Of a DNA stretch of 64,000 bases, positions 4,708-19,622 are shown in pieces. Position numbers and translations under genes: made by a program. Position 1 is the first letter of the stretch, and each line of letters starts with the position of its first letter. This stretch comes from Kineococcus mangrovi. Lineage in GTDB: Bacteria; Actinomycetota; Actinomycetes; Actinomycetales; Kineococcaceae. Below the pieces are notes generated by a model. It saw nothing but the letters and a program-made list of their open reading frames with translations, was not told the DNA's origin and did no database searches. The stretch covers positions 372,001-436,000 of the forward strand of contig NZ_JBGGTQ010000003.1 in NCBI RefSeq assembly GCF_041320705.1, read 5' to 3'.

Positions 4708-5246
4708 TGCTGGTCCTCCCCGCTCATCACCTCGCGCAGCGCGGACAGCCCGCGGTGCGCGTGCGTCTTCACGGCGCCCCGGCTGATGCCGAGGACGTCG
4801 GCGATGTCCTGCTCGGACATCTCGCCCTGGTACCGCAGCACCAGGACCTCCCGCTGCCGGACCGGCAGTCCGTCGAGGGCCGCCAGCACCGAGCGGTGCT
4901 CCCAGGCGCGCACGGCGTGCTCCTCCGGACCCTCCGGCGCGGGGTCGGGCAGGGGGCGGCGCCGGTCGGCCACGACGCGGTGCTTGAGCACGTCCCGGGC
5001 CCCGTTGACGACGCTCGTGCGCAGGTAGGCGACCGCGGACCCCTTGTCCGCCAGCCGGTCCCAGCGCCGGTGCAGGGTGACGAAGGCGTCGGCGACGACC
5101 TCCTCGGCGCTCGCGGACTCGCCCATGAGCGAGGTCGCGAGCGCCACGAAGCGCCGCCAGTGCGCCGCGTACAGCGCCCCGACGGCCTCGTCGGCCGACC
5201 ACGAGCGCGGGTCGTCAGCGACCACCGCGCGCTCCCTCATCACCAT
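4704..5246 (-). CDS. SigE-family ECF-type RNA polymerase sigma factor
   Basis: A 180-residue sigma-70 family member. Region 2 (VGALYAAHWRRFVALATSLMG to the YLRTSVVNGARDVL segment) and region 4 (LDGLPVRQREVLVLRYQGE, then SEQDIADVLGISRGAVKTHAHRG) are both present. It resembles the Streptomyces-type SigE/SigM-like small sigma factors. The frame opens at 5267, but an ECF-like promoter lies over that part, so I placed the start at ATG 5246 (5240 also possible). The partner gene overlaps its stop by 4 nt. A probable self-recognised promoter lies directly upstream. Confidence 0.88.
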   Translation of the reverse strand: MVMRERAVVADDPRSWSADEAVGALYAAHWRRFVALATSLMGESASAEEVVADAFVTLHRRWDRLADKGSAVAYLRTSVVNGARDVLKHRVVADRRRPLPDPAPEGPEEHAVRAWEHRSVLAALDGLPVRQREVLVLRYQGEMSEQDIADVLGISRGAVKTHAHRGLSALREVMSGEDQQ

Positions 5247-5255
5247 CACACCGTG

Positions 5256-5283
5256 TAGACGAGTCACGCAGGGTCACGGTTGA
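5256..5283 (-). promoter_or_regulatory. ECF-type promoter upstream of the sigma gene
   Basis: On the minus strand, TCAACC (5283-5278), a 16-nt spacer and CGTCTA (5261-5256) match the AAC / CGTC style of ECF promoters. The -10 ends 9 nt before ATG 5246. This suggests autoregulation and a nearly leaderless mRNA. Inference from pattern only. Confidence 0.45.
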
Positions 5284-5413
5284 CATCCAACCGGAAGATC
5301 TTCGCCGCACCGCGCAGGCTCGGGGTCCGAACCGTCGGCCCCTCGCTCTCGATCGTCGGGAGCCAGGGGCCGACGACCCGGGCCCGGGGGCCGCGCGAGT
5401 AGCGTTCGGGGGC

Positions 5414-5779
5414 ATGGCCGAGGTCTCCCGCGTGCAGCGCGCCCCCGACGACCTGTTCCTCAAGATCGTGGCCGGGGAGGTCCCCGCGACGATCGTGCAC
5501 TCCGACGACCTCGTCGTCGCCTTCGAGGACGTGAACCCGCAGGCGCCGGTCCACGTCCTGGTCGTCCCGCGCGAGCGGTACGAGAACGTCGCCGAGCTCG
5601 CGGCGGCCTCGCCGCAGGCCCTCGCGCGGCTCGTCGAGGTGGCCCAGCGCATCGCCGACGAGCGCTGCGGCGGGGAGCACCGCCTCGTCTTCAACACGGG
5701 CACCGCGGTGGGCCAGTCGGTCTTCCACGTGCACGGCCACGTGCTCGGCGGCCGGGACTTCACCTGGCCGCCCGGCTGA
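5414..5779 (+). CDS. HIT family (HINT-type) nucleotide hydrolase
   Basis: A 121-residue histidine-triad protein with the motif HVHGHVL at residues 105-111 (catalytic His at 107), preceded by the typical NTGTAVGQSVF. The N-terminal segment LFLKIVAGEVPATIVHSDD and the AFEDVNPQAPVHVLVVPR segment match HINT proteins, which hydrolyse adenosine phosphoramidates and acyl-adenylates. Full length. Start ATG 5414 lies 8 nt after a TAGCGT hexamer with no Shine-Dalgarno, suggesting a leaderless transcript. It runs toward the NAGGN genes with a 22-nt gap, but no functional link is known. Confidence 0.93.
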   Translation: MAEVSRVQRAPDDLFLKIVAGEVPATIVHSDDLVVAFEDVNPQAPVHVLVVPRERYENVAELAAASPQALARLVEVAQRIADERCGGEHRLVFNTGTAVGQSVFHVHGHVLGGRDFTWPPG

Positions 5780-5801
5780 TCACAGGGTTGGATGGGGCGC
5801 C

Positions 5802-7586
5802 ATGTGCGGTCTGTGCGGTGAGGTCAGGTTCGACGGGAAGGCGGCCGACGTCGCGGCGGTGCAGCGGATGTCGCAGACGCTGGCGCCCCGCGGACCGGAC
5901 GGGGAGGGCGTGTGGTCCCAGGGCCGGGTGGCCTTCGGGCACCGCCGGCTGTCGATCATCGACCTGTCGGCGTGCGGCGCCCAGCCCATGCAGGACCCCG
6001 AGCTGGGGCTGACGGCCGTCTTCAACGGCTGCATCTACAACTACCCGCAGCTGCGCGAGGAGCTCACCGGGTACGGCTACCGGTTCGTGTCCACGTCCGA
6101 CACCGAGGTCATCGTCAAGGGCTACCACCGCTGGGGCGCCGACGTCGTGGACCACCTCGTCGGCATGTTCGCCGTCGTCGTCCACGAGCGGGACACCGGC
6201 CGCGTGGTGCTGATGCGCGACCGCCTCGGCATCAAGCCGCTGTACCTGGCCGAGACGCCGGGCCGGCTGCGGTTCGCCTCGAGCCTGCCCGCGCTGCTGG
6301 CGGCCGGCGACGTGGACACCACCATCGACCCCGTCGCGCTGCACCACTACCTCACCTGGCACGCCGTCGTCCCGGCCCCGCACACCGTGCTGGCCGGCGT
6401 GCGCAAGCTGCCGCCGGCGACGGTCCGCGTCGTCGAACCCGACGGGACCTCCCGCGAGCACCGGTACTGGTCCCCCGAGCACGTGCGGCGCGAGCAGTTC
6501 GCGGGGTTCTCCGAGCGGGACTGGGAGGACGCCGTCCTGGAGTCGTTGCGGACCGCCGTGCGCCGGCGCACCGTCGCCGACGTCCCCGTCGGGGTGCTGC
6601 TCTCGGGCGGCCTGGACTCCAGCCTCATCACCGCGCTGCTCGCCGAGCAGGGCCAGCAGGACCTCGCGACGTACTCCATCGGGTTCGAGTCCGTCGGCGG
6701 CCGCGAGGGCGACGAGTTCGCCTACTCCGACGTCATCGCCGAGCGGTTCGGGACGAACCACCACCGCATCCGCGTCACCGGCGACGAACTCGTCGGGGCC
6801 CTCTCGCACGCGGTCGGGGCGATGGCCGAACCCATGGTCAGCCACGACGTCGTCGCCTTCGACCTGCTCTCCCAGCAGGTCTCGCAGACCATCAAGGTCG
6901 TGCAGTCGGGGCAGGGCGCCGACGAGGTGTTCGGCGGGTACCACTGGTACCCGCCGCTGACCGGGCTCAGCCCCGCCGAGGGCGTCGATGCCTACGCGCG
7001 GGCGTTCTTCGACCGCGACCACGCGCAGGTGGCGCAGGTGCTGAACCCGCAGTGGACGACGGCGGGCGACGTGTCCCGTGAGTTCGTCGAGCGCCACTTC
7101 ACCCGGGCCGGGGCCGACACCGCCGTGGACGCGGCGCTGCGGCTGGACACCGAGGTGATGCTCGTCGACGACCCGGTCAAGCGCGTCGACAACACGACGA
7201 TGGCGTGGGGGCTGGAGGCGCGCGTCCCGTTCCTGGACCACGAGCTCGTCGAGCTCGCCGCCGCGATCCCGCCGGAGCTGCAGCTCGCCAACGGCGGCAA
7301 GGGGATCCTCAAGCAGGTCGGGTACCGCGTCATCCCGCGCGAGGTCATCGACCGCCCCAAGGGGTACTTCCCCGTCCCGGCCATCACCCACCTCGAGGGC
7401 AAGGTGCTCGGCCTCGTCCGCGACGCGCTGTCCAGCCAGGCCGCGCGCGACCGCGCCCTGTTCCGCCCCGAGTACGTCCAGGGGTTGCTGGGCGACCCCA
7501 ACGGTGAGCTCACCCCGTTGCGCGGGAACAAGCTGTGGCAACTGGGCCTGCTCGAGATGTGGTTGCAGCAGCACGGCATCGGCTGA
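5802..7586 (+). CDS. asnO: N-acetylglutaminylglutamine amidotransferase
   Basis: A 594-residue asparagine-synthetase B type enzyme. Cys2 (MCGLCGEVRF) is the glutaminase nucleophile. The class II amidotransferase domain covers about residues 2-200, and the ATP-pyrophosphatase domain carries LLSGGLDSSLI near residue 270. In the NAGGN pathway it amidates the C-terminal Gln of N-acetylglutaminylglutamine to give the osmoprotectant NAGGN. The assignment over plain AsnB rests on the immediate downstream ngg gene, 16 nt away, and on the M42 peptidase that usually completes this trio, here 6.6 kb downstream. Osmotic induction is expected from studies in other bacteria. Confidence 0.9.
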   Translation: MCGLCGEVRFDGKAADVAAVQRMSQTLAPRGPDGEGVWSQGRVAFGHRRLSIIDLSACGAQPMQDPELGLTAVFNGCIYNYPQLREELTGYGYRFVSTSDTEVIVKGYHRWGADVVDHLVGMFAVVVHERDTGRVVLMRDRLGIKPLYLAETPGRLRFASSLPALLAAGDVDTTIDPVALHHYLTWHAVVPAPHTVLAGVRKLPPATVRVVEPDGTSREHRYWSPEHVRREQFAGFSERDWEDAVLESLRTAVRRRTVADVPVGVLLSGGLDSSLITALLAEQGQQDLATYSIGFESVGGREGDEFAYSDVIAERFGTNHHRIRVTGDELVGALSHAVGAMAEPMVSHDVVAFDLLSQQVSQTIKVVQSGQGADEVFGGYHWYPPLTGLSPAEGVDAYARAFFDRDHAQVAQVLNPQWTTAGDVSREFVERHFTRAGADTAVDAALRLDTEVMLVDDPVKRVDNTTMAWGLEARVPFLDHELVELAAAIPPELQLANGGKGILKQVGYRVIPREVIDRPKGYFPVPAITHLEGKVLGLVRDALSSQAARDRALFRPEYVQGLLGDPNGELTPLRGNKLWQLGLLEMWLQQHGIG

Positions 7587-7602
7587 CGCGGGGAGGACGC
7601 AC

Positions 7603-9396
7603 GTGTCGAACACCAAGCGCCGCACCACCGTCGCGGGCCTACGCCAACGCGGCCTGGACGTCCCGACCATCTCCGGGCGCACCTGGCAGCGGCCCCCGCA
7701 GTGGTTCACCGAGGACATGACGCGCGACGTCGTCCTCGACATGGGCTGGGGCCGGCTCGTCCTGGGGCAGACGTTCACCGACCAGCGGGCCGTCGTCGAC
7801 GCCCTGCGGGCCGAGGAGACCGGCGAGCGCGACATCGCGATGTACGTGCGCGAGCCGCAGGTGCTCGTCGGCCTGGCCCCGCACGAGCTGTTCCTGGACC
7901 CCTCGATCACGTTCCGGCTGCCGTTGCCGCGCTACCGCGCACCGCGGGACCGCAACCCCGACGTGTTCGTCCGCATGGTCCGCCGGCGTGCCGAGCTCGA
8001 CGAGGTGAACCGCATCTACGCCGCGTGCGGGATGGTCACCTCCGACGTCGACGTGATGTGGGCCAACCACCGGACGCGGACCTTCACCTACCTCGTCGCC
8101 GAGGACACCCGCACGGGGGAGGTCGTCGGCACGGTCACGGGGGTCGACCACGTCCTGGCCTTCGGGGACCCCGACCAGGGCGCCAGCCTGTGGTGCCTGG
8201 CGGCGGACCCGCAGACCGCTCCGCGCGGCACGGGGGAGGCGCTCGTCCGGGTGCTGGCCGAACGCTACGTCGCGCGGGGCCGGGCGATCCTGGACCTGTC
8301 GGTCATGCACGACAACACCGGGGCCATCACGCTGTACCGGCGGCTGGGTTTCCGGCCCGCGGCCCCCGTCGTCGTCAAGCGCAAGAACCCCATCAACCGG
8401 CCGCTGTTCTCCCCCCAGCCCGAAGGGCTCGGCGACCTCAACCCCTACGCCCGGATCATCGCCGACGAGGCCCTGCGCCGCGGGGTGCGGGTGGAGGTCA
8501 CCGACGCGCCGTCCGGCGAGGTGCGGCTGACGTACGCGGGCCGGTCGCTGCTGACCCGCGAATCCCTCTCCGAACTCACGAGCGCCGTCGCGATGTCGCG
8601 CTGCGACGACAAGCGCGTCACGCGCCGGCTCCTCGCCGGCCACGGGGTCCGCGTCCCCCGGGCGGTCGAACTGGACCAGGACCCGTTGCAGGACGGCGAG
8701 GGACTGGCGGAGTGCGAACGCCTCGTGGCCGAGACCGGACCCGTCGTGGTGAAACCCGCCCGCGGGGAGCAGGGCAAGGGCATCACCGTCGGGGTGCGCG
8801 GGGGGACCGATCTGCGCGAGGCCGTCGCGGCGGCGGCGGCGCACTGCCCCGACGTCCTCGTGGAGGAACTCGTCACCGGCCAGGACCTGCGGGTCGTCGT
8901 CATCGACCACGAGGTCGTCGCCGCCGCCGTGCGCCGGCCCGCCGCCGTCATCGGCACCGGCCACGACGACATCCGCGCGCTGATCACCGCCCAGAGCCGG
9001 CGGCGGCAGGCCGCGACCGGTGGCGAGTCCAGCATCCCGCTCGACGCCACCACCGAGAACGTCGTGGCCGACGCCGGGTACGCGATGGACGACGTCCTGC
9101 CGCGCGGGCGGCGCCTGGAGGTGCGCCGGACGGCGAACCTGCACACCGGCGGCACCATCGACGACGTCACCGACGACCTGCACCCCGACCTCGTCGACGC
9201 GGCCGTCGCGGCGAGCCGGGCCATCGGCATCCCCGTCACGGGCCTGGACTTCCTCGTCCCCGACGTCTCCGGACCCGAGCACGTCGTCATCGAGGCCAAC
9301 GAACGGCCGGGGCTGGCGAACCACTCGCCCCGGCCTACGGCGCAACGGTTCCTGGACCTGCTGTTCCCCGAGACGCGCCGGGCCGGGAACGGGTGA
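7603..9396 (+). CDS. ngg: N-acetylglutaminylglutamine synthetase (GNAT plus ATP-grasp)
   Basis: A 597-residue two-domain enzyme. An N-terminal GNAT acetyltransferase region (about 125-280, with LWCLAADPQTAPRGTGEALV and HDNTGAITLYRRLGF) is fused to a C-terminal ATP-grasp ligase (about 300-590, with PVVVKPARGEQGKGITVGV and VIEANERPGLANHS). Together they acetylate Gln and ligate two Gln residues to make N-acetylglutaminylglutamine, the substrate of AsnO. Start GTG 7603 has a GGGAGGA Shine-Dalgarno; the open frame extends upstream into asnO but without similarity. The pair asnO-ngg forms an operon. The expected third gene does not follow directly; an accessory island begins after this stop codon. 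Confidence 0.93.
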   Translation: MSNTKRRTTVAGLRQRGLDVPTISGRTWQRPPQWFTEDMTRDVVLDMGWGRLVLGQTFTDQRAVVDALRAEETGERDIAMYVREPQVLVGLAPHELFLDPSITFRLPLPRYRAPRDRNPDVFVRMVRRRAELDEVNRIYAACGMVTSDVDVMWANHRTRTFTYLVAEDTRTGEVVGTVTGVDHVLAFGDPDQGASLWCLAADPQTAPRGTGEALVRVLAERYVARGRAILDLSVMHDNTGAITLYRRLGFRPAAPVVVKRKNPINRPLFSPQPEGLGDLNPYARIIADEALRRGVRVEVTDAPSGEVRLTYAGRSLLTRESLSELTSAVAMSRCDDKRVTRRLLAGHGVRVPRAVELDQDPLQDGEGLAECERLVAETGPVVVKPARGEQGKGITVGVRGGTDLREAVAAAAAHCPDVLVEELVTGQDLRVVVIDHEVVAAAVRRPAAVIGTGHDDIRALITAQSRRRQAATGGESSIPLDATTENVVADAGYAMDDVLPRGRRLEVRRTANLHTGGTIDDVTDDLHPDLVDAAVAASRAIGIPVTGLDFLVPDVSGPEHVVIEANERPGLANHSPRPTAQRFLDLLFPETRRAGNG

Positions 9397-9498
9397 CGGG
9401 GAGGGTCGGCCGTCCGGGCCGTCCGGGAACACGGGCTGGCGGTGCCGACCCCGCTGCGTCGACGTCGGACGTGCGCGCGACCGCCCACCCACGGGAGG

Positions 9499-9594
9499 TC
9501 AGCGCGCGGACCAGCCTGCGCCGGAGGCGGTGGTCTGCCCGGTGACCCACTCCACGCCGTCGCTGGGCAGCCACCCGACCGGTCGCGCGGTGAC
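9499..9594 (-). pseudogene. C-terminal remnant of a short-chain dehydrogenase (SDR)
   Basis: On the minus strand a 31-codon frame ending in TGA reads RPVGWLPSDGVEWVTGQTTA and then SGAGWSAR. This matches the closing WLASD...YVTGQ...DGGW segment of classical SDR enzymes. No SDR catalytic YxxxK or Rossmann part is found upstream. A neighbouring frame to about 9690 (EQLRAAVIAAS) may be a frameshifted extension. The rest of 9397-9813 holds nothing I recognise. It looks like an eroded gene end left at the island edge. Confidence 0.5.
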
Positions 9595-9813
9595 GCCGCG
9601 ATGACGGCGGCGCGCAGTTGCTCGTCGGCGTCACCGGTGTCGTGGAGGTCGAGGCGGTCCACGGTGATCGAGCACGTGCGGCAGACGGGGCAGCCTCCTG
9701 CGCCAGGACCAGGGGACTGAAAACACCCCTACGTGTGGTCGACGACGAGACCGCGTCGTCAACGCCCACGACGCGGGGTGACCGTGCGTTGCGTGAACCG
9801 GGATCGGCGTCTG

Positions 9814-10032
9814 TCACCCGGCGTCCCACTCAGGACGCCAGAGGCGCCAGGAGTTCAGGTAGAAGACCGCTTGGACGGTGAAGATGACCCCGAGGACGTA
9901 CGACCACCACCCGGCATCACTGGGTAGAGCCACCAGGAGCCACGTCACGATGGCCAGAACGGCCCACACGATTCCAAGACCGATGGACTGCTTCTTGGTC
10001 CGAGTCGCTTTCCACCGCGGTGCCTTGGCCAT
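9814..10032 (-). CDS. Small two-helix membrane protein
   Basis: A 72-residue protein. A basic start (MAKAPRWKATRTKKQ) is followed by two hydrophobic segments, GIVWAVLAIVTWLLVALP and WSYVLGVIFTVQAVFYL, joined by a short SDAGW loop, then a Trp-rich tail. Lower GC than its surroundings and a continuous sensible composition support a real gene. A CAGAGT hexamer ends 6 nt before ATG, fitting leaderless expression. Family not recognised; function unknown. It sits at the ngg end of the island, beyond the HepT gene. Confidence 0.7.
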   Translation of the reverse strand: MAKAPRWKATRTKKQSIGLGIVWAVLAIVTWLLVALPSDAGWWSYVLGVIFTVQAVFYLNSWRLWRPEWDAG

Positions 10033-10148
10033 CTACCCACTCTGAACGAGCAGACCTCAGCCCGCTGTTCCGCCGGGGACAGGGGTCTGGTGACAGCGCG
10101 GCCGCCGGCGACAGCTCTCGCACCGAGAGATGAGCACCTGTTCCGGTG

Positions 10149-10481
10149 TCAGTCGCCGAGGCCCTCGAGGAGCCGTTCGACAGCTCGCCGCAGCTCGGGC
10201 AGGTCCTGGGTGACGGTGGCGGCGACGATGGCGTGGGTGGTGTCGAAGCAGCGGTGGGCGAGGTGATCCCGCATGCGGGCGATCTGCGACCACGGAAGGT
10301 CCGGCTCACCGGTCAGCACGTCGTCCGGGACGGCTTTGACTGCCTCGCCGATCTCGATCAAGCGCACTCGGACGGCGTCGAAGACGAGACCGTCGGACAG
10401 GTCACCGCGGCGGGTGTGAGCGTCGATGGCCTCCAGCGCCGCCTGCACGTCCAGCAGTCGCTGGCGGGCGTGCCGGCTCAC
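10149..10481 (-). CDS. hepT: HepT-like DUF86 HEPN toxin
   Basis: A 110-residue DUF86/HEPN-type protein. The Rx4H ribonuclease motif appears as RMRDHLAHRCF (family usually RNxxxHxY; here Asp replaces Asn and Cys replaces Tyr), followed by the family ending TQDLPELRRAVERLLE. In characterised MntA-HepT pairs HepT is an RNase toxin that the antitoxin inactivates by adding AMP to a tyrosine near this motif. Here that Tyr position is Cys, so the modification site, activity or mechanism may differ. Start GTG 10481 lies 40 nt after the antitoxin gene; co-transcription is likely. Confidence 0.85.
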   Translation of the reverse strand: MSRHARQRLLDVQAALEAIDAHTRRGDLSDGLVFDAVRVRLIEIGEAVKAVPDDVLTGEPDLPWSQIARMRDHLAHRCFDTTHAIVAATVTQDLPELRRAVERLLEGLGD

Positions 10482-10521
10482 GTGAACACCACGGCCCTGC
10501 CCGTCGTCGCTGTCGTCTCGC

Positions 10522-11046
10522 TCACAGTGACACCAGGTCCGCTTCCACGTTCGCCCGCACGTCGGGCTTGAGCCCGTCCTCAGGGACCAGGTCGACCGGT
10601 GCGTGGAGGAGGTGCTCCAGGTCCTGTCGTAGACGTCCCAGGGCGAACAGCCCTGTCCCGGCCGGTAGGTCCACGAGCAGGTCGACGTCGGAGCCGGGGC
10701 GTTCGGTCCCGCGGGCGGTGCTGCCGAAGACGCGGACGTGGTGCACGCCGTGAGTGGCCGCGATCGTCTTGACCTTGCGCCGGTGCCGGCGCAGGCGCTG
10801 TCCCAGAGGGCCGGAGAGCGGGGCGGTGGGTGGGGAGTCGGCGGTGATCAATGAGGCGTCGAGCAGGTGGCCGCTGGCGCGCAGCAGGTGCAACAACGTC
10901 GGCAGGGAGGGCTGACGCTGCCCGGACTCGTAGGCGCTGATCACGCTCTGGGTCACTCCTGCGCGCTGGCCCAGCTGGGCTTGTGTCAGTCCGGCGCGTC
11001 GACGCGCGTCCTTCAGCAACATCCCGGCGGACTCGATGACGGGCAC
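10522..11046 (-). CDS. XRE helix-turn-helix fused to MNT nucleotidyltransferase antitoxin
   Basis: A 174-residue fusion. The N-terminal Cro/CI-type HTH (about 8-65, LLKDARRRAGLTQAQLGQRA then VTQSVISAYESGQRQPS) is joined to a minimal nucleotidyltransferase (about 95-174) with the signature VFGSTARG followed by SDVDLLVDL. MNT proteins act as antitoxins to HepT, and the fused HTH would let the antitoxin repress its own operon. A near-consensus TATGAT -10 hexamer ends 6 nt before GTG 11046, implying a leaderless mRNA. HepT follows downstream. Confidence 0.9.
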   Translation of the reverse strand: MPVIESAGMLLKDARRRAGLTQAQLGQRAGVTQSVISAYESGQRQPSLPTLLHLLRASGHLLDASLITADSPPTAPLSGPLGQRLRRHRRKVKTIAATHGVHHVRVFGSTARGTERPGSDVDLLVDLPAGTGLFALGRLRQDLEHLLHAPVDLVPEDGLKPDVRANVEADLVSL

Positions 11047-11052
11047 GTCATC

Positions 11053-11058
11053 ATCATA
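11053..11058 (-). promoter_or_regulatory. TATGAT -10 hexamer for the HTH-MNT/HepT operon
   Basis: A minus-strand TATGAT, 6 nt before GTG 11046. A perfect 10-bp palindrome TCGTCGACGA lies at 11078-11087, close to where the -35 would be, and could be the HTH operator. No clear -35 hexamer. Confidence 0.5.
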
Positions 11059-11187
11059 GCGAATCGTCGATGCCAGGTCGTCGACGAGAGCGCGTGGGAA
11101 TCGCCGTGCGGGGTCGTCGCTGGCCCCCCGAGGCCGCCTACCACGCGGGATGACCGTGACCTCGCGTGGAGTGCCCGGTGGGGGCCT

Positions 11188-12324
11188 TCAGCGAGAAGGC
11201 CACGATCCTTCCGCCAGTCGTCGAACCTCGAGCAGCACGACGGCTGGGTCGACGTGACCACGGGCCAACGCGTCGACCGCGCCCATGACCGCCTGAGCCG
11301 CATCCTGTTCGCCGGCTTGGAGGACCGCGTCGATCGCGGTGGCCTCCGGTGCCAGCGGCTCGTGGACGTACTCCTCACCAGCGGCCAGGTAGCGGCCGGT
11401 GTAGACGATCTCGACCTCGCTCTGGCTTTCTGGAGCCGGGAACAGGCGGTTCCAGACCTGGTCGAAGTCGGCCCACTCCTGAGGTAGCGGTTCACCGCGC
11501 AAGGCGGAGTCCAGGGCCTGCTCGATCCAGTCCAGGGTGGTGATGCCGGCCACGTCGCAGGCTCGGCGGGCCGCCCACACCGCGACCGCACGTTGCTGCG
11601 CGCCGTTCAAGGCGGCCAGCGCGTCGACCACGTCACGGTCGAGGTGGGCCAGCTGGCCGGTGCGCCCGCCGACGGCGCGCAGCTGGGCGGTGGGAGCCCG
11701 CCCACCCCACTCCTCGACCTCTTGAGCCGCTTCCCGCTGCGTCTGGGCGGCCAGCTCCTGCTGTTCCTGCTCGGCGCGCTGCGCAGCCCGTTCCTGCGGT
11801 GTGGGTGGCGGCTGGGTCGTGGCGGCTTCGCGGTGCCAGTAGGCGGCGCTCTGACTGCCCAGGCGGATCACCGCATCCGGGGTCGAGGGCGCCGGCCACA
11901 GCTGCAGCAGGTACTGGTCCAGGGTCGGCTCGCCGTCCATGCGGGTGCGGTCGTGGGCCTGGTCCATGCCGTTGGCGCACCAACGGACGCGGTAGGTGTC
12001 GGGGAGGATGCCGATCTCGTGCCACCAGTCGAAGGCGCTGAGCCAGTACGAGCCGGTGGTGGCGGTGAAGGGGACCTCCACGACGTCCTCCCACTGCACA
12101 GGAACAGGCGGCTGAGCGGGGTGCAGTTCAAGGCGCAGGGCAACCGGACCGGTGTGCAGTCCGGTGACCATGTGCAGTTGGCCCGGGAAGGTCGCGCCGC
12201 ACAGTCCGTTCGCCTGTCCACCGCGGGAACTGGTGTGGTCCAGTTCGACTTCGGCGTCGTCGGGTTGCAGGTTGATGAAGCCGTAGTGGACGGGGACCTG
12301 GTCGTCGAACAGCACCGTGACCAC
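11188..12324 (-). CDS. Unknown protein of an uncharacterised actinobacterial family
   Basis: A 378-residue protein not recognised from any named family. The N-terminal half looks like a beta-rich domain (VLFDDQVPVHYGFINLQPDD, LHMVTGLHTGPVALRLELH, VQWEDVVEVPF, then YRVRWCANGMDQAHD). A Gln/Glu/Ala-rich charged segment (about 205-235) follows. The C-terminal half is helical (DVVDALAALNGAQQRAVAVW then AARRACDVAGITTLDWIEQA). Start GTG 12324 is preceded by AAAGGG, a weak Shine-Dalgarno; the frame opens at 12390. It stands alone between two toxin-antitoxin loci. An immunity or defence role is a guess from company only. Confidence 0.6.
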   Translation of the reverse strand: MVTVLFDDQVPVHYGFINLQPDDAEVELDHTSSRGGQANGLCGATFPGQLHMVTGLHTGPVALRLELHPAQPPVPVQWEDVVEVPFTATTGSYWLSAFDWWHEIGILPDTYRVRWCANGMDQAHDRTRMDGEPTLDQYLLQLWPAPSTPDAVIRLGSQSAAYWHREAATTQPPPTPQERAAQRAEQEQQELAAQTQREAAQEVEEWGGRAPTAQLRAVGGRTGQLAHLDRDVVDALAALNGAQQRAVAVWAARRACDVAGITTLDWIEQALDSALRGEPLPQEWADFDQVWNRLFPAPESQSEVEIVYTGRYLAAGEEYVHEPLAPEATAIDAVLQAGEQDAAQAVMGAVDALARGHVDPAVVLLEVRRLAEGSWPSR

Positions 12325-12436
12325 GGAAGAGCACCCTTTCGCCGGGCCCTGGCCGCTGCAGGGCGGCTCCACTGTGCCCGGCGGGAGCATCGGCGGCGGC
12401 CGTGTCCGGGTGGTTCACCCGGTTGCCGGCCCGAAG

Positions 12437-12452
12437 GTGACGTCGACGTCAC
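12437..12452. promoter_or_regulatory. Perfect 16-bp palindrome upstream of the unknown island gene
   Basis: GTGACGTCGACGTCAC is its own reverse complement. It lies about 110 nt upstream of the 378-aa gene start and 120 nt downstream of the vapC 3' end. The rest of 12325-12572 holds nothing recognisable. It could be an operator. Confidence 0.35.
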
Positions 12453-12572
12453 GTCCTGGTGGCTGGCCTGCCCGCGCCCAGATCCGGTCGACCCACGCGT
12501 ACGCAGCAGCCGGCCATCAACGTGTGCGCGACGTCGCCGACGTCCCGTTCAGCGGCGGCTTCAGCGCCGTGA

Positions 12573-12965
12573 TCAGCGCAGGACCTCCACCGCGCAGGTG
12601 AGGCCCGGTGCACGGGACAGGCGAGCGTCGGCGGTCACCAGGACGACGCCCAGCGCCTCTGCCAGTGCGACGTAGGCGGCGTCGTAGCTGGTGGTGGTGT
12701 GGCGCAGCTGCCAGCAGCGGTAGAGCAACGGCCGGTGACCGGCGCGTCGCAGGGGCAGGTCGACGAGGTCGTTCAGCGCCAGGTCGGCGCGACGTTCCGG
12801 TAGACGACCTCCGTTCGCGGCGCGGCGAAGGACCGAGGCCACCTCGAGGTCGATGACCTCCGGGGCGGTGAGGACTTCTCCGCGGAGCCGGTCCCGGGCC
12901 TGGTCTCCGTCGGGTCCGTCGTCGGCCAGGGCTGGGGCGAGGACGCTGGCGTCAACGACGATCAC
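12573..12965 (-). CDS. vapC: VapC-family PIN domain toxin
   Basis: A 130-residue PIN domain RNase. The acidic quartet is visible: D5 (MIVVDASVLAPAL), Glu in VIDLEVASVL near residue 41, Asp in SYDAAYVALAEAL near 94, and Asp in LVTADARLSRAPG near 112. VapC toxins cleave RNA, often tRNA, and are held inactive by VapB. Its start overlaps the vapB end by 14 nt, so expression is coupled. Full length with intact catalytic residues, hence probably active when not bound. Confidence 0.92.
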   Translation of the reverse strand: MIVVDASVLAPALADDGPDGDQARDRLRGEVLTAPEVIDLEVASVLRRAANGGRLPERRADLALNDLVDLPLRRAGHRPLLYRCWQLRHTTTSYDAAYVALAEALGVVLVTADARLSRAPGLTCAVEVLR

Positions 12966-13182
12966 GGTCCTCGTGCACCGCCTTCACCGCGTCGCGGAAG
13001 GACAGGCTGCCGCCGGTTCGGCCGCCGGCGCGGTCGAGCACCTCGTCGAGGGAAGGGCTGCTGGCGTCCTGGATGAGCTTGGCCAGGAGGTACTCCTGGA
13101 GGGACTGGTGGGCCAGGGCCGCGCGGCGGCGCAGGACGGTGTGCGTCTCGTCGGGGACGTCCTCGATCTGCACGCTGGGCAT
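12952..13182 (-). CDS. vapB: VapB/FitA-type antitoxin
   Basis: A 76-residue antitoxin beginning MPSVQIEDVPDETHTVLRRR, a ribbon-helix-helix DNA-binding domain of the FitA type (RAALAHQSLQEYLLAKLIQDA). The C-terminal tail (SLSFRDAVKAVHEDRDRR) would occupy the VapC groove. The open frame extends to 13266, but ATG 13182 is favoured by the RHH start and a CAGAAT hexamer 6 nt upstream. It probably represses its own operon through the inverted repeat in the promoter. Confidence 0.9.
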   Translation of the reverse strand: MPSVQIEDVPDETHTVLRRRAALAHQSLQEYLLAKLIQDASSPSLDEVLDRAGGRTGGSLSFRDAVKAVHEDRDRR

Positions 13183-13188
13183 GGCGCC

Positions 13189-13217
13189 ATTCTGGCGCTG
13201 CCGGCGCCACCGGACAA
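13189..13217 (-). promoter_or_regulatory. vapBC promoter with inverted-repeat operator in the spacer
   Basis: On the minus strand TTGTCC (13217-13212), a 17-nt spacer and CAGAAT (13194-13189) form a promoter whose -10 ends 6 nt before the vapB ATG. The spacer carries the inverted repeat TGGCGC-N5-GCGCCA (13193-13209), a good candidate VapB operator. Confidence 0.55.
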
Positions 13218-13293
13218 TGACGTGGTCACCGACAAGGCCGTGACGTCGCCGGTCGCTGACGATCACGCGCCACGCGGGGTGACCTCGCGGTCG

Positions 13294-13650
13294 TCAGTTG
13301 TCGAAGCGGTCTCGAAGGTTGCCGTTGACGAGCTGATCGATGCGGTACCGCAGCTGACGGACCTCGCCAGCGTTGGCCAGGGGGTCCTGCAACAGCAGCG
13401 TCCAGGTGAGTCGACCCCCTCGAGGGTCGCTGGACAGCTCGAAGTGGATGCGCGCAGTGGGTAACCGGGGCCACAACGATGACCAGGTGAGTGAGGTGGG
13501 TTCCTCGGCTGCGATGACACGCGGTTGCTGCTCGTCAGGGTGCAGGAGCAGCCAGGAACGGTTCGGGTCCTGGTCGGGGCGGATCAGCGCCTCGAAGAGG
13601 ACGTGGGGTGGTGGAGCGTGCAGCGCGCTTCGTCCGGCGGCTCTCATCAC
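13294..13650 (-). CDS. SRPBCC-like protein of unknown ligand
   Basis: A 118-residue protein with START/Bet v1-like features: RSALHAPPPHVLFEALIRP at the N-terminus, PRVIAAEEPTSLTWSSLWPR, RIHFELSSDP and GGRLTWTLLLQDPLANAGEV, then the terminal helix RQLRYRIDQLVNGNLRDRFD. Such folds bind hydrophobic ligands; nothing indicates a substrate here. GTG 13650 (or ATG 13647) follows a TAATCT hexamer by 7 nt, which supports a leaderless start. It is shorter than usual SRPBCC proteins (about 140). It is upstream of vapBC on the same strand, with a 111-nt gap. Confidence 0.65.
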   Translation of the reverse strand: MMRAAGRSALHAPPPHVLFEALIRPDQDPNRSWLLLHPDEQQPRVIAAEEPTSLTWSSLWPRLPTARIHFELSSDPRGGRLTWTLLLQDPLANAGEVRQLRYRIDQLVNGNLRDRFDN

Positions 13651-13759
13651 CAGCCTGAGATTACGAGGCCGTCAGTGGAAGCACCCCGATTTTTCGCCGC
13701 CATGTCGACGGGTCGTCTGAAGCGATGGCCAGCGGGATGACCGGATGGTTGGTGGCGTT

Positions 13760-13784
13760 GACCCGCCCCTGCCAGGGGCGGGTC
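13760..13784. terminator. 11-bp perfect hairpin in a gene-free stretch
   Basis: GACCCGCCCCT and AGGGGCGGGTC pair around a GCC loop. It lies upstream of the SRPBCC-like gene and might end transcription from either side. The rest of 13651-14208 shows no gene I can recognise; several long frames are GC-rich shadows. Confidence 0.4.
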
Positions 13785-14208
13785 GCGGACATCAACTGGG
13801 CAGCGTTCGGGCCTGCTGCGTGATCAGGTGACGACTGCGTCACGCGGGCGGAGCGACCGTCGGAGGTCATGACGGTCTCGAACTCGATCGGGGCCGACCG
13901 GCCCGAACCGCTCTGCCGGCGACGACGCCGCAGATCAGACCCCGCCAGAGAGGGGAGGTCGCGAGGACGACGAGGGCGGTGCAGTCGGGGACGACCCCAC
14001 CGGGTGATCGCGGGGTGGGACGTGCCGCCCCGGCCGCGCCCCGTCGTCCCCTCGCCGCGCGGGCGGCCGAGCCGCAGCAGCTGCTCGACACCCTCCTCGC
14101 GCTCGCGGACGGTCGGGGTCGTCACCCCGGTGGGCGCCGGTGGCCCCTCGGCCCGTCCACGAGGTCCACCGGGACGTCCTCGCCGGAGTCCTGAGAGCAT
14201 CACCCGTG

Positions 14209-15411
14209 ATGAGCAGCCAGACCCGCACCAGCGCCCCCAGCCTCGCGACCGTCGACGCCCCGATCGACGTCGAGTACCTCACGAGCACCCTCATGGAGAT
14301 GCTCCGGATCCCCAGCCCCTCCGGGCGCACCGACGCCGTCATGCAGGCCGTCGGCGACCACGTCGCCGCCCTCGGGATCCCGTTCGACCTGACCCGCCGG
14401 GGCATCCTGCGCGCGACCCTGCGCGGGCGCACGGACAAGGTGCGCCGGGCGGTCGTCGTGCACGCCGACACCATCGGGCTCATGGTCAAGCGGGTGAAGG
14501 CGTCCGGCCGGCTCGAGGTCGTGCCCGTCGGCAGCCACAGCGCCCGCTTCTCCGAGGGGGCGCACGTGACGATCTTCACCGACGACCACGACCGCGTGTA
14601 CACGGGCACGGTGCTGCCGCTGAAGAGCAGCGGGCACACCTTCGGCGACGAGATCGACACCCAGGGCGTCGGGTGGCCGCAGGTCGAGATCCGCATCGAC
14701 GAACCCGTCGACTCCGCCGAGGACGTGCGCGCGCTCGGCGTCGAGGTCGGCGACTACGTGGCCCTGGACGCGGCCCCGCAGCTGACCCGCCGCGGCTACG
14801 TCAAGTCCCGCCACCTCGACGACAAGGCCGGCCTCGCCGCGTGCCTGGCGGCGCTCAAGGCGCTGCGGGACGCGGACCTGCCGCTCGCCGTCAGCGCCCA
14901 GTTCCTCGTCACGATCGGGGAGGAGGTCGGGTTCGGCGCCACCCACGGCCTCGCCGGTGACGTGGCCGAACTCGTCGCCGTGGACAACGCGGTCGTGGCC
15001 GAGGGGCAGAACTCCCGCGAGGAGATGGTCAGCGTCGCCATGCTCGACATGACCGGACCCTTCGACTACCACCTGTCCCGCCGCCTGCAGGGCCTGGCCC
15101 GCGAGCACGACATCCCCGCCGTCCGGGACGTCTACCGGCACTACCGCTCCGACGCCGCCCCCGCCCTGGAGGCCGGGATCGAGGCCCGGCACGCCCTGCT
15201 CGGGTTCGGGCTGGACTCCAGCCACGGCCACGAGCGCGCCCACGTCGACGGGCTCGTCGCCCTCGCGCGACTGCTCGTCGTGTACCTCCAGAGCGGGCTG
15301 ACCTTCGACGACTGGGACCAGTCCGACTCCGGTTCCCTGGCCGACTTCCCCAGCCTCAGCGTGCAGCCGGCCGACCCCGAACCCCTCGACCGGACCGTCG
15401 TCGCGGACTGA
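14209..15411 (+). CDS. M42-family peptidase of the NAGGN osmoprotectant system
   Basis: A 400-residue metallo-aminopeptidase-like protein. Metal-ligand segments are VVVHADTIGLMVKRV, the bridging Asp in KSRHLDDKAGLAACLAALK, the catalytic Glu pair in TIGEEVGFGATHG, VAVDNAVVAEGQ and GLDSSHGHERAHVDG near the C-terminus. It matches the M42 hydrolase found as the third gene in NAGGN loci and probably turns over NAGGN or its precursor peptide. It is normally adjacent to ngg but here is separated by 4.8 kb. Start ATG 14209 (GTG 14206 adjacent). It now needs its own promoter or distant read-through. Confidence 0.9.
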   Translation: MSSQTRTSAPSLATVDAPIDVEYLTSTLMEMLRIPSPSGRTDAVMQAVGDHVAALGIPFDLTRRGILRATLRGRTDKVRRAVVVHADTIGLMVKRVKASGRLEVVPVGSHSARFSEGAHVTIFTDDHDRVYTGTVLPLKSSGHTFGDEIDTQGVGWPQVEIRIDEPVDSAEDVRALGVEVGDYVALDAAPQLTRRGYVKSRHLDDKAGLAACLAALKALRDADLPLAVSAQFLVTIGEEVGFGATHGLAGDVAELVAVDNAVVAEGQNSREEMVSVAMLDMTGPFDYHLSRRLQGLAREHDIPAVRDVYRHYRSDAAPALEAGIEARHALLGFGLDSSHGHERAHVDGLVALARLLVVYLQSGLTFDDWDQSDSGSLADFPSLSVQPADPEPLDRTVVAD

Positions 15412-15414
15412 CCG

Positions 15415-15451
15415 GGCGCCCGGTCCCGCCGCGGCGGGGAGTCCGGGCGCC
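15415..15451 (+). terminator. Strong hairpin after the M42 peptidase
   Basis: A 9-bp outer stem (GGCGCCCGG with CCGGGCGCC) plus an inner TCCCGCC / GGCGGGGA stem begins 4 nt after the stop codon. No U-tract. Confidence 0.6.
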
Positions 15452-15607
15452 GCCTGCCGGTGGTGGAGGTCACCGGCCCGCACCGCGTCACCGGGCCGGC
15501 CGGGGAGTGCGTCGCGGAACCGGCGGGACGTGTCGAGCACGCCCGGGGGCGGTTCCGGACGCCGGCGCGGAGGGATAGCTTGGGCGCCCCCGGGCGAAGG
15601 AGCTCCC

Positions 15608-16633
15608 ATGCACGTCCCCACGAAGCTGCTCGACGACCCCGCCGACGCCGTCACCGACGCGCTGCGCGGGCTGGCCGCGGTCCACCCCGAGCTGACCGTC
15701 GACCTCGAGCACCACGTCGTCTCCCGCAACCACGACCACCACGGGGACCACCGGCCCGGCAAGGTCGGCCTCGTCTCCGGCGGCGGGTCCGGGCACGAAC
15801 CCCTGCACGCCGGGTTCGTCGGTCTCGGCATGCTCGACGCGGCCGCCTGCGGGGCGGTGTTCACCTCACCCGTGCCCGACCAGGTGCTGGCCGCGACGAC
15901 GGCCGCCTCCAGCGGCGGCGGGGTGGTGCACGTCGTGAAGAACTACACCGGCGACGTCCTGAACTTCCAGATGGCCGCCGAGCTCGCCGACGACGAGGAC
16001 ATCGCCGTCGAGACCGTCCTCGTCGACGACGACGTCGCCGTCACCGACAGCCTCTACACCGCCGGCCGCCGCGGCACCGGCGGGACGCTGTTCGTCGAGA
16101 AGGTCCTCGGCGCCGCCGCCGAGCAGGGCATGGCGCTGGCCGACGTCGCCGCTCTCGGCCGGGACGTCGTGGCCCGCAGCCGCAGCTTCGGGGTGGCGCT
16201 GAGCCCCTGCACGACACCGGGGTCGGACCGTCCCGGTTTCGACCTCGAACCCGGGGAGATGGAGCTGGGCATCGGCATCCACGGCGAACCCGGCCGCCGG
16301 CGCGTGCCCGTCCCGGCCACCGGGGTGGCCCGGGAGGTGGCGCGGGTCTCCGTCGCCGCCATCGCCGACGACGTGCCGCTGGACGGCGAGGAGCTGCTGC
16401 TGCTCGTCAACGGGATGGGCGGCACCCCGCTGCTGGAGCTGCAGGTGCTCGCCGGTGACGTCGTCACCGAGCTCACCGGGCGCGGGGCGCGCATCGCGCG
16501 GGCCCTGGTCGGCAACCACGTCACGAGTCTGGAGATGGCGGGCGCCATGGTGAGCGTGTGCCGCGCGACCCCGCAGCTGCTGCAGCTGTGGGACGCCCCC
16601 GTCCGCACCCCGGCGTTGCGGTGGGGCGCGTGA
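15608..16633 (+). CDS. dhaK: Dihydroxyacetone kinase subunit DhaK
   Basis: A 341-residue substrate-binding subunit of PTS-dependent dihydroxyacetone kinase. Visible motifs are [34 protein letters not shown] and [10 protein letters not shown], where His225 would bind dihydroxyacetone covalently. Start ATG 15608 has GAAGGAG 8 nt upstream. A GATAGCTT hexamer region about 30 nt upstream may be its -10. The downstream dhaL start overlaps its stop by 4 nt, so dhaKLM is a tightly coupled operon. Confidence 0.95.
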
Positions 16634-17253
16634 GCGCCGCGCTCACCGCCGCCGGGGTGCGGGACTGGCTGCAGCGCTTCGCGACCGCCGTCGACGAGCA
16701 CGCCGGCGAGCTGACCGACCTCGACCGCCCCATCGGGGACTCCGACCACGGGGTGAACCTGCAGCGCGGGACGCACGCCGTCCTCGCCGCGCTCGACGCC
16801 GCCGACCCCGCCACCCCGGGGGCAGCGCTCGTCAAGGCGGGGTCCACCCTCGTCAGCACCGTGGGCGGCGCCAGCGGGCCCCTGTTCGGGACGCTGCTGC
16901 GCCGGACCGGCAAGGCCCTGGGGGACGCCGACCCCGTCGACGCGGCGGCGCTCGCGGCCGGGCTGCGGGCGGGTCTGGACGCCGTCACGGCCCTCGGCGG
17001 GGCGCAGGTGGGCGAGGCGACCCTCGTCGACGCGCTGGCCCCGGCCGTCGAGGCGCTGGAGGCCGGTGGTTCCGCGCAGGAGGCCGCCGGGGCCGCCGAG
17101 CGCGGGGCCGCCTCCACCGACGACCTCGTGGCCCGCAAGGGCCGCGCGAGCTACCTCGGCGAGCGGGGGATCGGGCACCGCGACCCCGGGGCCGTCTCGA
17201 TCGCGCTGCTCTTCGCGGCGCTCGCCGGGTCGACCGCGGAGGACGGCTCGTGA
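16630..17253 (+). CDS. dhaL: Dihydroxyacetone kinase subunit DhaL
   Basis: A 207-residue ADP-binding subunit. The Mg-ADP binding Asp cluster appears as [18 protein letters not shown], and the nucleotide loop as [14 protein letters not shown]. It accepts phosphate from DhaM and passes it to dihydroxyacetone held by DhaK. Start GTG 16630 overlaps the dhaK stop as GTGA. The C-terminal [21 protein letters not shown] segment is typical. Normal length. Confidence 0.95.
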
Positions 17254-17639
17254 GCGTGCGCGTCGTGCTCCTGTCGCACAGCGCCGACGTGGCCCGCGGC
17301 GTCGCCGACCTCGCCGGGCAGATGGCCCCCTCGGCGACCGTCGTCCCCGTGGGCGGGACGGCGGACGGCCGCCTCGGGACCGACGCCGACGCCCTCGAAG
17401 CGGCCGTGACGGCCGGGCTGGACGCGGGTGCGGAGGTCGCCGTGCTCGTCGACCTCGGCAGCGCCGTCCTCACGGCCCGGACCGTGCTCGCCGACCTGCC
17501 CGACCAGGCGCCCGTCGCGCTCGTCGACGCCCCGTTCGTCGAGGGGGCCGTCGCCGCCGTCGTGACGGCCTCGACGGGCGCCGCGCTCGCCGAGGTGGTC
17601 GCGCAGGCCGAGCTCGCGCGGGACCTGCGCAAGGGCTGA
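17250..17639 (+). CDS. dhaM: Phosphotransferase DhaM, EIIA-man domain only
   Basis: A 129-residue PTS IIA-mannose-type phosphocarrier. His10 in VVLLSHS is the phosphorylation site, and the [14 protein letters not shown] segment is characteristic. It receives phosphate from HPr and rephosphorylates ADP on DhaL. It lacks the HPr-like and EI-like extensions found in the E. coli protein, which is usual in Gram-positives. Start GTG 17250 overlaps dhaL by 4 nt. It depends on general PTS proteins encoded elsewhere. Confidence 0.93.
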
Positions 17640-17645
17640 GCCTGG

Positions 17646-17651
17646 CAGGAT
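17646..17651 (+). promoter_or_regulatory. -10 hexamer for pabAB, leaderless
   Basis: CAGGAT ending 6 nt before GTG 17658, with no Shine-Dalgarno. Pattern shared with many genes here. Confidence 0.4.
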
Positions 17652-17657
17652 CCCCCC

Positions 17658-19622
17658 GTGCGCTGGCTCGTCGTGGACAACCACGACTCCTACACCCACA
17701 ACCTGGTGCAGCTGCTGGCCGTGGCCTCGGGCACCGAACCGGTCGTCGTCAGCGACGACGACGTGGCACCGGGGGAGCTGGACCTGGGGGGTTTCGCCGG
17801 GGTGGTGGTCTCCCCGGGACCGGGCCACCCGGCCGTCCCGCGGGACTTCGCGCTGTCCGCCGACGTCCTGGCCCGGGCGCAGGTGCCCGTCCTCGGGGTG
17901 TGCCTGGGGATGCAGGGGATCGCGCTGGCGGCCGGGGCCGTCGTCGACGCCGCACCGCAGCCGCGGCACGGGTTCGTCGAGCACGTCCGGCACACGGGCG
18001 GGTCCGTCCTGGCCGGGCTGCCGCAGGGTTTCGACGCCACCCGGTACCACTCGTTCCGCGTCGCCGAACCCCTGCCGGACGTCCTGGAACCCCTCGCCTG
18101 GGGCCAGGACGGCGTGCTCATGGCGCTGCGGCACCGGGAACGCCCGCAGGTCGGGGTGCAGTTCCACCCCGAGTCGGTCGCCAGCGCGTGCGGCCCGCGG
18201 ATCGTGGAGAACTTCGTGCGCTGGTGCCGCCGGTGGGGCCACCCCCGCCGGTACCGGCTGCACGCCCGCCGGCGGCCGGGGCTCGTCGACGCCGAGGCTG
18301 TGCTGGCGCGGCTGCTGGCCGGGGACGACGCGTTCTGGCTGGACTCGGCGACCCGCGGCGCCGGCTCGGGCCGGTTCTCCTTCCTCGGGCCGCTCACCGG
18401 ACCCGCGGAGACGTCCCTCGCGGCGCTGTCCGAGCGGCTGGGCGAGGTCGGTGTCGACGGTGCGCAGGATGTGCCGTTCGAGTTCGCGGGCGGGTACGTC
18501 GGGTGGGCCGGGTACGAGGCCAAGGACGAGTGCGGTCTCCCCGTCGCCCGTGACGGGTCCCGCGACGCCGGGACGCCCGCGGCCCGCTGGGTGTTCGTCG
18601 ACCGGTTCCTGGCCCTGGACCACGACGAGGACGCCACCTGGGTGTGCGCGCTGGCCGAGGAGGGTTCCCCGACGCCCGGGTGGCTGGAGGGGACGGCCGA
18701 CGCCCTCGACGCCCTCGAACCTCTGCCCGACCCCGCCCCGGCCCCCGACCTGCCCGTCGTCCTCGACACGGCGCCGGGGCGCTACCGGGACGACGTCGTG
18801 GCCGCGCAGGAGCAGCTGCGGGCCGGGGAGAGCTACGAGGTCTGCCTCACGACGCAGGCCCGGGTCCCCGTGGACCCGTCCCCGGACGCGGGGGTGGCGG
18901 CCTACCGGCGGTTGCGCCGGGCGAACCCCGCCCCCTACGCCGCGTACCTGCGCTCCGGTGGCGTGGAGGTCGTCGGCAGTTCCCCCGAACGCTTCCTGCG
19001 CGTCGGCGGGGACGGGCAGGTGGAGACGAGGCCCGTCAAGGGGACGGCGCCGGTGGACACCGACCCCGCGGCGCTGCGCGCGGACCCGAAGACCCGCGCC
19101 GAGAACCTCATGGTCGTCGACCTGCTGCGCAACGACCTCGGCCGGGTCTGCTCGCCCGGTTCGGTCACCGTCCCGCACCTCATGGCGACCGAGACCCTCG
19201 CCACCGTGCACCAGCTCGTGACGACCGTCCGCGGCCGGCTGCGCCCCGACGTCTCCGCCGTCGAGTGCCTGCGCGCCTGCTTCCCGCCGGGGTCGATGAC
19301 GGGGGCGCCGAAGCTGCGGACCACCGAGATCGTCGACGCCCTCGAACAGCGCCCGCGGGGGATCTACTCCGGGACCCTCGGCTGGTTCTCCCTCACCGGC
19401 GCCGCCGACCTCGCCGTCGTCATCCGCACCGCGGTGCGCGTGGGGCGGGAGTGGCGGGTCGGGGCCGGCGGTGCCGTGGTGCTGGACTCCGACCCCGACG
19501 CCGAGGTCGCGGAGGTGCTGCTGAAGCTGCGGGCCCCCCTCGCGGCGCTCACGACGCGACGGGTCCCGGGCACACCTCCCGGCGTCCCGCGCCGGGACGT
19601 CAGTCCGCCACGTCGAGCGTGA
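17658..19622 (+). CDS. pabAB: Fused aminodeoxychorismate synthase PabA-PabB
   Basis: A 654-residue fusion. The N-terminal glutamine amidotransferase has the nucleophile in VLGVCLGMQGIAL and the His-Glu pair in VGVQFHPESV. The chorismate-binding PabB domain has EVVGSSPERFLR, TRPVKGTAPVD, ENLMVVDLLRNDLGR and PPGSMTGAPKLRT. It makes 4-amino-4-deoxychorismate for folate synthesis, which pabC on the facing strand converts to p-aminobenzoate. The PVKG motif (rather than PIAG) supports PabB over TrpE. The last 23 nt overlap the converging reductase gene. The C-terminal tail after about residue 630 is low complexity. Confidence 0.94.
   Translation: MRWLVVDNHDSYTHNLVQLLAVASGTEPVVVSDDDVAPGELDLGGFAGVVVSPGPGHPAVPRDFALSADVLARAQVPVLGVCLGMQGIALAAGAVVDAAPQPRHGFVEHVRHTGGSVLAGLPQGFDATRYHSFRVAEPLPDVLEPLAWGQDGVLMALRHRERPQVGVQFHPESVASACGPRIVENFVRWCRRWGHPRRYRLHARRRPGLVDAEAVLARLLAGDDAFWLDSATRGAGSGRFSFLGPLTGPAETSLAALSERLGEVGVDGAQDVPFEFAGGYVGWAGYEAKDECGLPVARDGSRDAGTPAARWVFVDRFLALDHDEDATWVCALAEEGSPTPGWLEGTADALDALEPLPDPAPAPDLPVVLDTAPGRYRDDVVAAQEQLRAGESYEVCLTTQARVPVDPSPDAGVAAYRRLRRANPAPYAAYLRSGGVEVVGSSPERFLRVGGDGQVETRPVKGTAPVDTDPAALRADPKTRAENLMVVDLLRNDLGRVCSPGSVTVPHLMATETLATVHQLVTTVRGRLRPDVSAVECLRACFPPGSMTGAPKLRTTEIVDALEQRPRGIYSGTLGWFSLTGAADLAVVIRTAVRVGREWRVGAGGAVVLDSDPDAEVAEVLLKLRAPLAALTTRRVPGTPPGVPRRDVSPPRRA

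Follow-up and report, generated by a model that had tools for sequence, protein, structure and literature searches.

The window examined here is a 64,000-nt stretch of Kineococcus mangrovi DNA (contig NZ_JBGGTQ010000003.1, positions 372,001 to 436,000) from a draft genome of 4.36 Mb in 23 contigs (G000). It carries the three genes of the N-acetylglutaminylglutamine amide (NAGGN) set, asnO, ngg and a gene for an M42 peptidase, which were called using the curated NCBIfam cut-offs of TIGR03104, TIGR03103 and TIGR03106. The trio is predicted from its sequence to be a NAGGN-making set, in which the M42 peptidase would act in NAGGN turnover. asnO adjoins ngg, and approximately 4.8 kb lie between the ngg stop codon and the peptidase gene, so the trio is not fully contiguous. 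The genes of Pseudomonas aeruginosa (asnO-ngg-M42, PA3459-PA3461) are described, in the portion of PMC8070244 that deals with them, as one predicted operon. Compared to that trio, the window has all three families in identical order and on the same strand, but its M42 gene is set off behind minus-strand genes. The initial annotation had stated that the three genes are intact and that M42 is separated from asnO-ngg by about 4.8 kb of minus-strand accessory genes (referred to below as the island), and both statements were borne out, each member of the trio exceeding its cut-off (Table 1). It had also proposed that the island entered a contiguous trio. The junction between ngg and M42 is, with high probability, a hot spot of gene turnover, where the island of the window replaced a nei gene and most of a second gene, X.

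Table 1. Features of the asnO-ngg-M42 locus, in window positions (HTH, helix-turn-helix; RHH, ribbon-helix-helix; SDR, short-chain dehydrogenase/reductase; ORF, open reading frame; aa, amino acids).
Feature	Position	Strand	Basis and remarks
asnO, N-acetylglutaminylglutamine amidotransferase	5802-7586	+	TIGR03104, 980.8 bits (cut-off 570.1)
ngg, N-acetylglutaminylglutamine synthetase	7603-9396	+	TIGR03103, 790 bits (cut-off 569)
SDR gene remnant (decayed C-terminal end), left island edge	9499-9690	-	DNA similarity to SDR genes at other loci of other Kineococcus
Small membrane protein, 72 aa	9814-10032	-	ORF; Pfam matches weak, below cut-off
HepT-like toxin	10149-10481	-	PF01934, 58 bits; Cys (codon 10248-10250) in place of the Tyr of RX4HXY
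HTH-MNT antitoxin	10522-11046	-	PF01909 with HTH_31/HTH_3; GSX10DXD motif present
378-aa protein without family assignment	11188-12324	-	Matches patchy across the order
PIN-domain protein, VapC/FitB-like toxin	12573-12965	-	PF01850, 45.2 bits (cut-off 23.6)
RHH antitoxin, FitA-like	12952-13266	-	PF22513, 28.3 bits (cut-off 27)
118-aa ORF	13294-13650	-	ORF; likeness to SRPBCC unconfirmed
Decayed 3' end of a probable IS3-family transposase gene, right island edge	13796-13964	-	DNA matches
Remnant of the 5' end of X, approximately 185 bp	~14010-14195	-	Beside M42; alignment to X of five congeners
M42 peptidase, NAGGN set	14209-15411	+	TIGR03106, 489.4 bits (cut-off 397.75)

The junction was compared with the corresponding loci of nine congeners, of K. 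xinjiangensis (G011; same family, placed in another genus in the taxonomy used) and of two genomes of other families (G018 and G028). Among ten congeners ngg was found in nine and M42 in eight; G001 has ngg and no M42 was found in its genome, and G009 has neither. In all eight Kineococcus genomes that hold both genes on one contig, the window counted, the two are spaced by 1.25 to 6.3 kb and at least one minus-strand gene lies between them. The distance from the ngg stop codon to the first aligned residue of M42 is 4809 bp in the window, 1253 bp in G002, 3142 bp in G004, 1888 bp in G005, 1776 bp in G006, 6313 bp in G007, 1883 bp in G008 and 1465 bp in G010; the locus of G003 is broken over two contigs. 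Short junctions were observed in K. xinjiangensis (192 bp), G018 (57 bp) and G028 (50 bp). The uninterrupted junction which the initial annotation looked for in relatives is therefore absent from the congeners examined, and since all eight junctions, that of the window counted, are spaced, the uncoupling of M42 predates the island. The claim that the island itself uncoupled synthesis from turnover in transcription is not supported, as the spacing with a minus-strand gene appears to be the older condition.

A spaced arrangement shared by all relatives had been named in advance as an outcome that would speak against insertion; the congeners do share the spacing, but what fills it differs from species to species. 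A Nei/Fpg-type glycosylase gene (nei), on the plus strand, is present at the junction in G003, G004, G005, G006, G007 and G008, and at that of G001 it is reduced to a stub of 29 codons. Gene X, which encodes about 305 aa on the minus strand and gives weak coiled-coil-type matches only, is found in G001, G005, G006, G007 and G008; it adjoins M42 except in G001 and G007, where another cluster comes after it. G002 has instead a gene for a reductase like old yellow enzyme, G003 has a gene like those of M1 peptidases in addition to nei, and G004 has an alpha/beta hydrolase gene together with a homologue of a gene found at 19600-20820 in the window. That homologue, which is approximately 74% identical, occupies L118:4952-6151 in the gap of G004 and is also the filler of G010 (L123:6537-7748), a further sign of local gene shuffling. 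Conserved asnO-ngg and M42 thus flank differing genes in eight Kineococcus genomes, as expected of a genomic hot spot with species-specific cargo.

The ngg tree groups the window with G006 (support 100/99), as does the asnO tree (90/96), and this nearest relative carries both nei and X at the junction. No nei orthologue was found in the whole draft genome of the window, the best match being only 41% identical. X is represented by a remnant of its 5' end directly beside M42. Its local-alignment scores against the X genes of five congeners were 31.4-37.0, compared to means of 12.7-15.2 for shuffled sequence, and none of 200 shuffles reached the score in any of the five comparisons; three control stretches of the island scored 10.4-17.8. 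The remnant indicates that X predates the island, which accordingly replaced nei together with the greater part of X.

The course of events that we infer would begin after the split from K. xinjiangensis, when genes, including minus-strand ones, would have entered between ngg and M42, after which M42 could no longer simply be transcribed together with asnO-ngg. On the line of descent to the window, nei on the plus strand and X on the minus strand would have occupied this junction. In the window lineage a foreign accessory assembly would then have displaced nei and X, sparing about 185 bp of the latter, the assembly consisting of the SDR end, the membrane protein, the HTH-MNT/HepT cassette, the 378-aa gene, the RHH/PIN pair, the 118-aa ORF and the IS3 end. 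An IS3 element may have taken part in this exchange. M42 presumably has its own promoter, and a location of that promoter within or next to the remnant of X may be what preserved the remnant. A toxin-antitoxin island on the opposite strand inside a conserved osmoprotectant cluster resembles a fresh disruption, yet it is the latest filler of an already open junction, ie ordinary gene turnover at a hot spot.

Several observations weigh against this reconstruction. The match to X in G006 covers 178 of 304 residues, and both nei and X are missing from the junctions of G002 and G010, so that either gene may have entered earlier or later. In the joint tree, the fork that joins the window clade with G001/G007 and G003 has a support of 82. 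The sample contained only 12 Kineococcaceae genomes, and that of the window is a draft in 23 contigs. There is no full IS3 element at the junction, and the IS3 label derives from two annotated plasmid records.

The model of the initial annotation, in which ngg and M42 were contiguous until the island came between them and parted synthesis from turnover, draws its strength from the contiguous junctions that do exist, in K. xinjiangensis, in other families and among the named loci of a wider survey. This was made on 80 named ngg loci (best 80 of 506), of which 22 had M42 in view: 13 had it no more than 500 bp from ngg, two at 500-1200 bp and seven farther away. M42 was out of view in the other 58, although for 36 of these at least 9 kb was read downstream. 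A search of seven chosen whole genomes with TIGR03106 gave a score over the cut-off in two: Quadrisphaera granulorum, where the junction is 93 bp, and Geodermatophilus obscurus DSM 43161, where the match is on a different contig from ngg. The latter was the only one among five Geodermatophilaceae genomes searched. PMC8070244 describes 17 genomes, mainly Mycobacterium, with asnO-ngg and no peptidase gene in the cluster. Contiguity of the trio is common but it is not the rule, and the statement that the three genes are normally contiguous was too strong for the Actinobacteria, given 13 of 22 within 500 bp where M42 is in view in those best 80 loci. Entry into a contiguous trio conflicts with the spaced junctions of the eight Kineococcus genomes and is contradicted by the remnant of X beside the window M42, and we regard it as very unlikely. 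What stands of the proposal is that foreign genes are present between ngg and M42; the trio was not split by them, as the junction was already open in the congeners. M42 appears only loosely coupled to NAGGN synthesis in Actinobacteria, being often distant or not found, which bears on its assumed role as the turnover enzyme. The Geodermatophilaceae loci (L039-L097) have asnO-ngg with no M42 in view, and by eye their downstream ORFs resemble CrcB-type and trehalose-6-phosphate synthase genes.

Decayed sequence is present at both edges of the island. Full-length forms of the SDR gene at the left edge are found at other places in other Kineococcus genomes. The remnant scored 79.4 against a stretch of G010 (shuffled mean 12.3) and, more weakly, 21.4 against a stretch of G011 (shuffled mean 13.2), and in neither case did any of 200 shuffles reach the score. 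It was also considered as debris of IS3 or X, which was rejected as it is a genuine SDR end. At the right edge there is only the decayed 3' end of a transposase gene, approximately 120-170 nt. Over 120 nt it shares 83% identity with a copy from G006, and its matches overlap annotated IS3 transposases on one Mycolicibacterium and one Nocardioides plasmid.

Other vehicles were considered for the island as a whole. No integrase profile was matched among the ten proteins scanned, no framing repeats were found at the window junction, and the only tRNAs of the window, at 28740 and 59827, are not near the island; an integrative element with an integrase, a tRNA site or framing repeats was accordingly rejected. 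Compared to known hot spots, the Kineococcus junction is small (1.25-6.3 kb), and the window copy is without all three of these marks. A phage origin was rejected because there was no DNA match in the phage collection and no PHROG match for the five island proteins scanned, and a plasmid origin of the whole island because, of the seven matching plasmid records, even the one with the widest match covered 10% of the query. No RNA family reached its gathering score in 5000-20000. Consensus sigma-70 promoters and intrinsic terminators were not found in 9300-14300, which says little at such a GC (guanine plus cytosine) content.

Five of the island genes have a third-position GC of 0.84-0.88, compared to 0.95-0.98 for asnO, ngg and M42, which fits a foreign origin. 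Most of the labels given by the initial annotation stood, namely the HTH-MNT/HepT pair, the RHH/PIN (VapBC) pair and the SDR remnant. The exception was the 'SRPBCC-like' gene, as the 118-aa ORF gave no matches in profile searches and its single-sequence model (pLDDT 56.4) was too poor for a fold search. The transposase end and the remnant of X had escaped that annotation. The RHH and PIN genes overlap on the same strand, and no departure from VapBC/FitAB was seen in this predicted toxin-antitoxin pair. The 378-aa protein had no matches in Pfam, NCBIfam, PADLOC or PHROG, and its single-sequence model (pLDDT 39.6) was also too poor for a fold search. Matches to it were obtained in 23 of the order's 248 genomes, a count that includes the genome of the window; at the five loci read around its relatives, no other island gene was seen apart from a weak PIN match at one of them. 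In 13 other regions of the asnO-ngg-M42 locus, from 12 genomes, no island protein (of the seven) had a match of at least 40 bits.

The HTH-MNT/HepT pair has close relatives in five other Kineococcus genomes, with the MNT proteins 83-93% identical. Approximately 5-6 kb of flank on each side was included in the comparison of these loci, although the end of the contig allowed less for G010. On the same strand, DNA matches cover the pair only, about 950 bp beginning approximately 26 bp before the start codon, and the flanks gave a single opposite-strand match, of 181 bp, between G001 and G006. Since the matches are confined to the pair and the flanks differ, it constitutes a small cassette at different places in the genomes, ie 10149-11075 in the window together with L220-L224, in six Kineococcus genomes with the window counted.

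Judged by these comparisons of sequence, the island genes look like unrelated passengers. A functional tie to NAGGN, with the toxin-antitoxin pairs or the 378-aa protein responding to osmotic stress for example, is suggested by position only, and we consider it most improbable, as other genomes carry the 378-aa gene and the cassette at unrelated sites, and other species have other fillers at the junction. That the island is an older filler, which the relatives lost while gaining nei and X, is almost certainly wrong: the ease with which the content changes is seen in the fillers of G002 and G010, but the window keeps its remnant of X, four close relatives and G001 carry X at the same place, and the 13 other regions hold no 40-bit remnant of an island gene.

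The cassette resembles the type VII HepT/MNT (HEPN-MNT) systems in having a HepT-like and an MNT gene side by side, the latter with the GSX10DXD motif. It differs in that the MNT of the window is fused to an N-terminal HTH domain and its HepT has no acceptor tyrosine. According to the relevant portion of PMC11586414, the tyrosine of RX4HXY in HepT is the acceptor of the nucleotide (AMP) transferred from MNT. The window HepT retains the arginine and histidine of this motif and has cysteine in place of the tyrosine, which is present in all 12 of the other HepTs with a readable motif; seven of the 20 loci scanned gave none readable. The cysteine may reflect either altered neutralisation, or an impaired toxin, or a miscalled base. 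The suggestion that two addiction modules stabilise the locus finds no support. In G005 (L203) and G008 (L202) the match to HepT is split by extra sequence, and the MNT gene is whole.

The junctions of G001 (L114:7435-13716) and G007 (L121:8366-12839) also hold a fusion gene, in which a GCS2 carboxylate-amine ligase is joined to a circularly permuted ATP-grasp domain, together with an S9 peptidase gene; G001 has in addition, between the two, a second TIGR03104 amidotransferase (936.2 bits). The fusion was found in 21 of 248 genomes of the order (E <= 1e-150; further loci L179-L199), and the window is without it. In the 1.5 kb of flank covered, a TIGR03104-like gene is next to the fusion in 13 of the 21, and in the other eight the S9 gene is directly next to it. 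Of the 13 genomes of the TIGR03104 type, 10 had no ngg over the cut-off, and all eight of the S9 type had one; G093 has a partial match below threshold, and G191 is 76% complete. Fisher's test gave p 0.001 for this association, but six of the eight S9-type genomes belong to one genus and the genomes are thus not independent. It is conceivable, though we would not yet favour it, that the junction is a swap site for whole peptide-amide modules, in which an Ngg-independent pathway to an amidated dipeptide would borrow the amidotransferase of the trio and the S9 peptidase would stand in for M42. For the TIGR03104-like genes beside the ligase fusion, NAGG amidotransferase may be a misleading equivalog name. 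The literature searches made returned no paper that joins N-acetylglutaminylglutamine with ATP-grasp, nor one that joins it with Kineococcus. The presence of the ligase cluster at the junction of two relatives provides a testable lead to a second amidated-dipeptide pathway.

On the far side of M42, genes tentatively named DhaK-, DhaL- and DhaM-like follow in the window (15530-17639), and the same is observed in G005, G006 and G008. In G007 and G010 a gene tentatively named pabB-like comes directly after M42.

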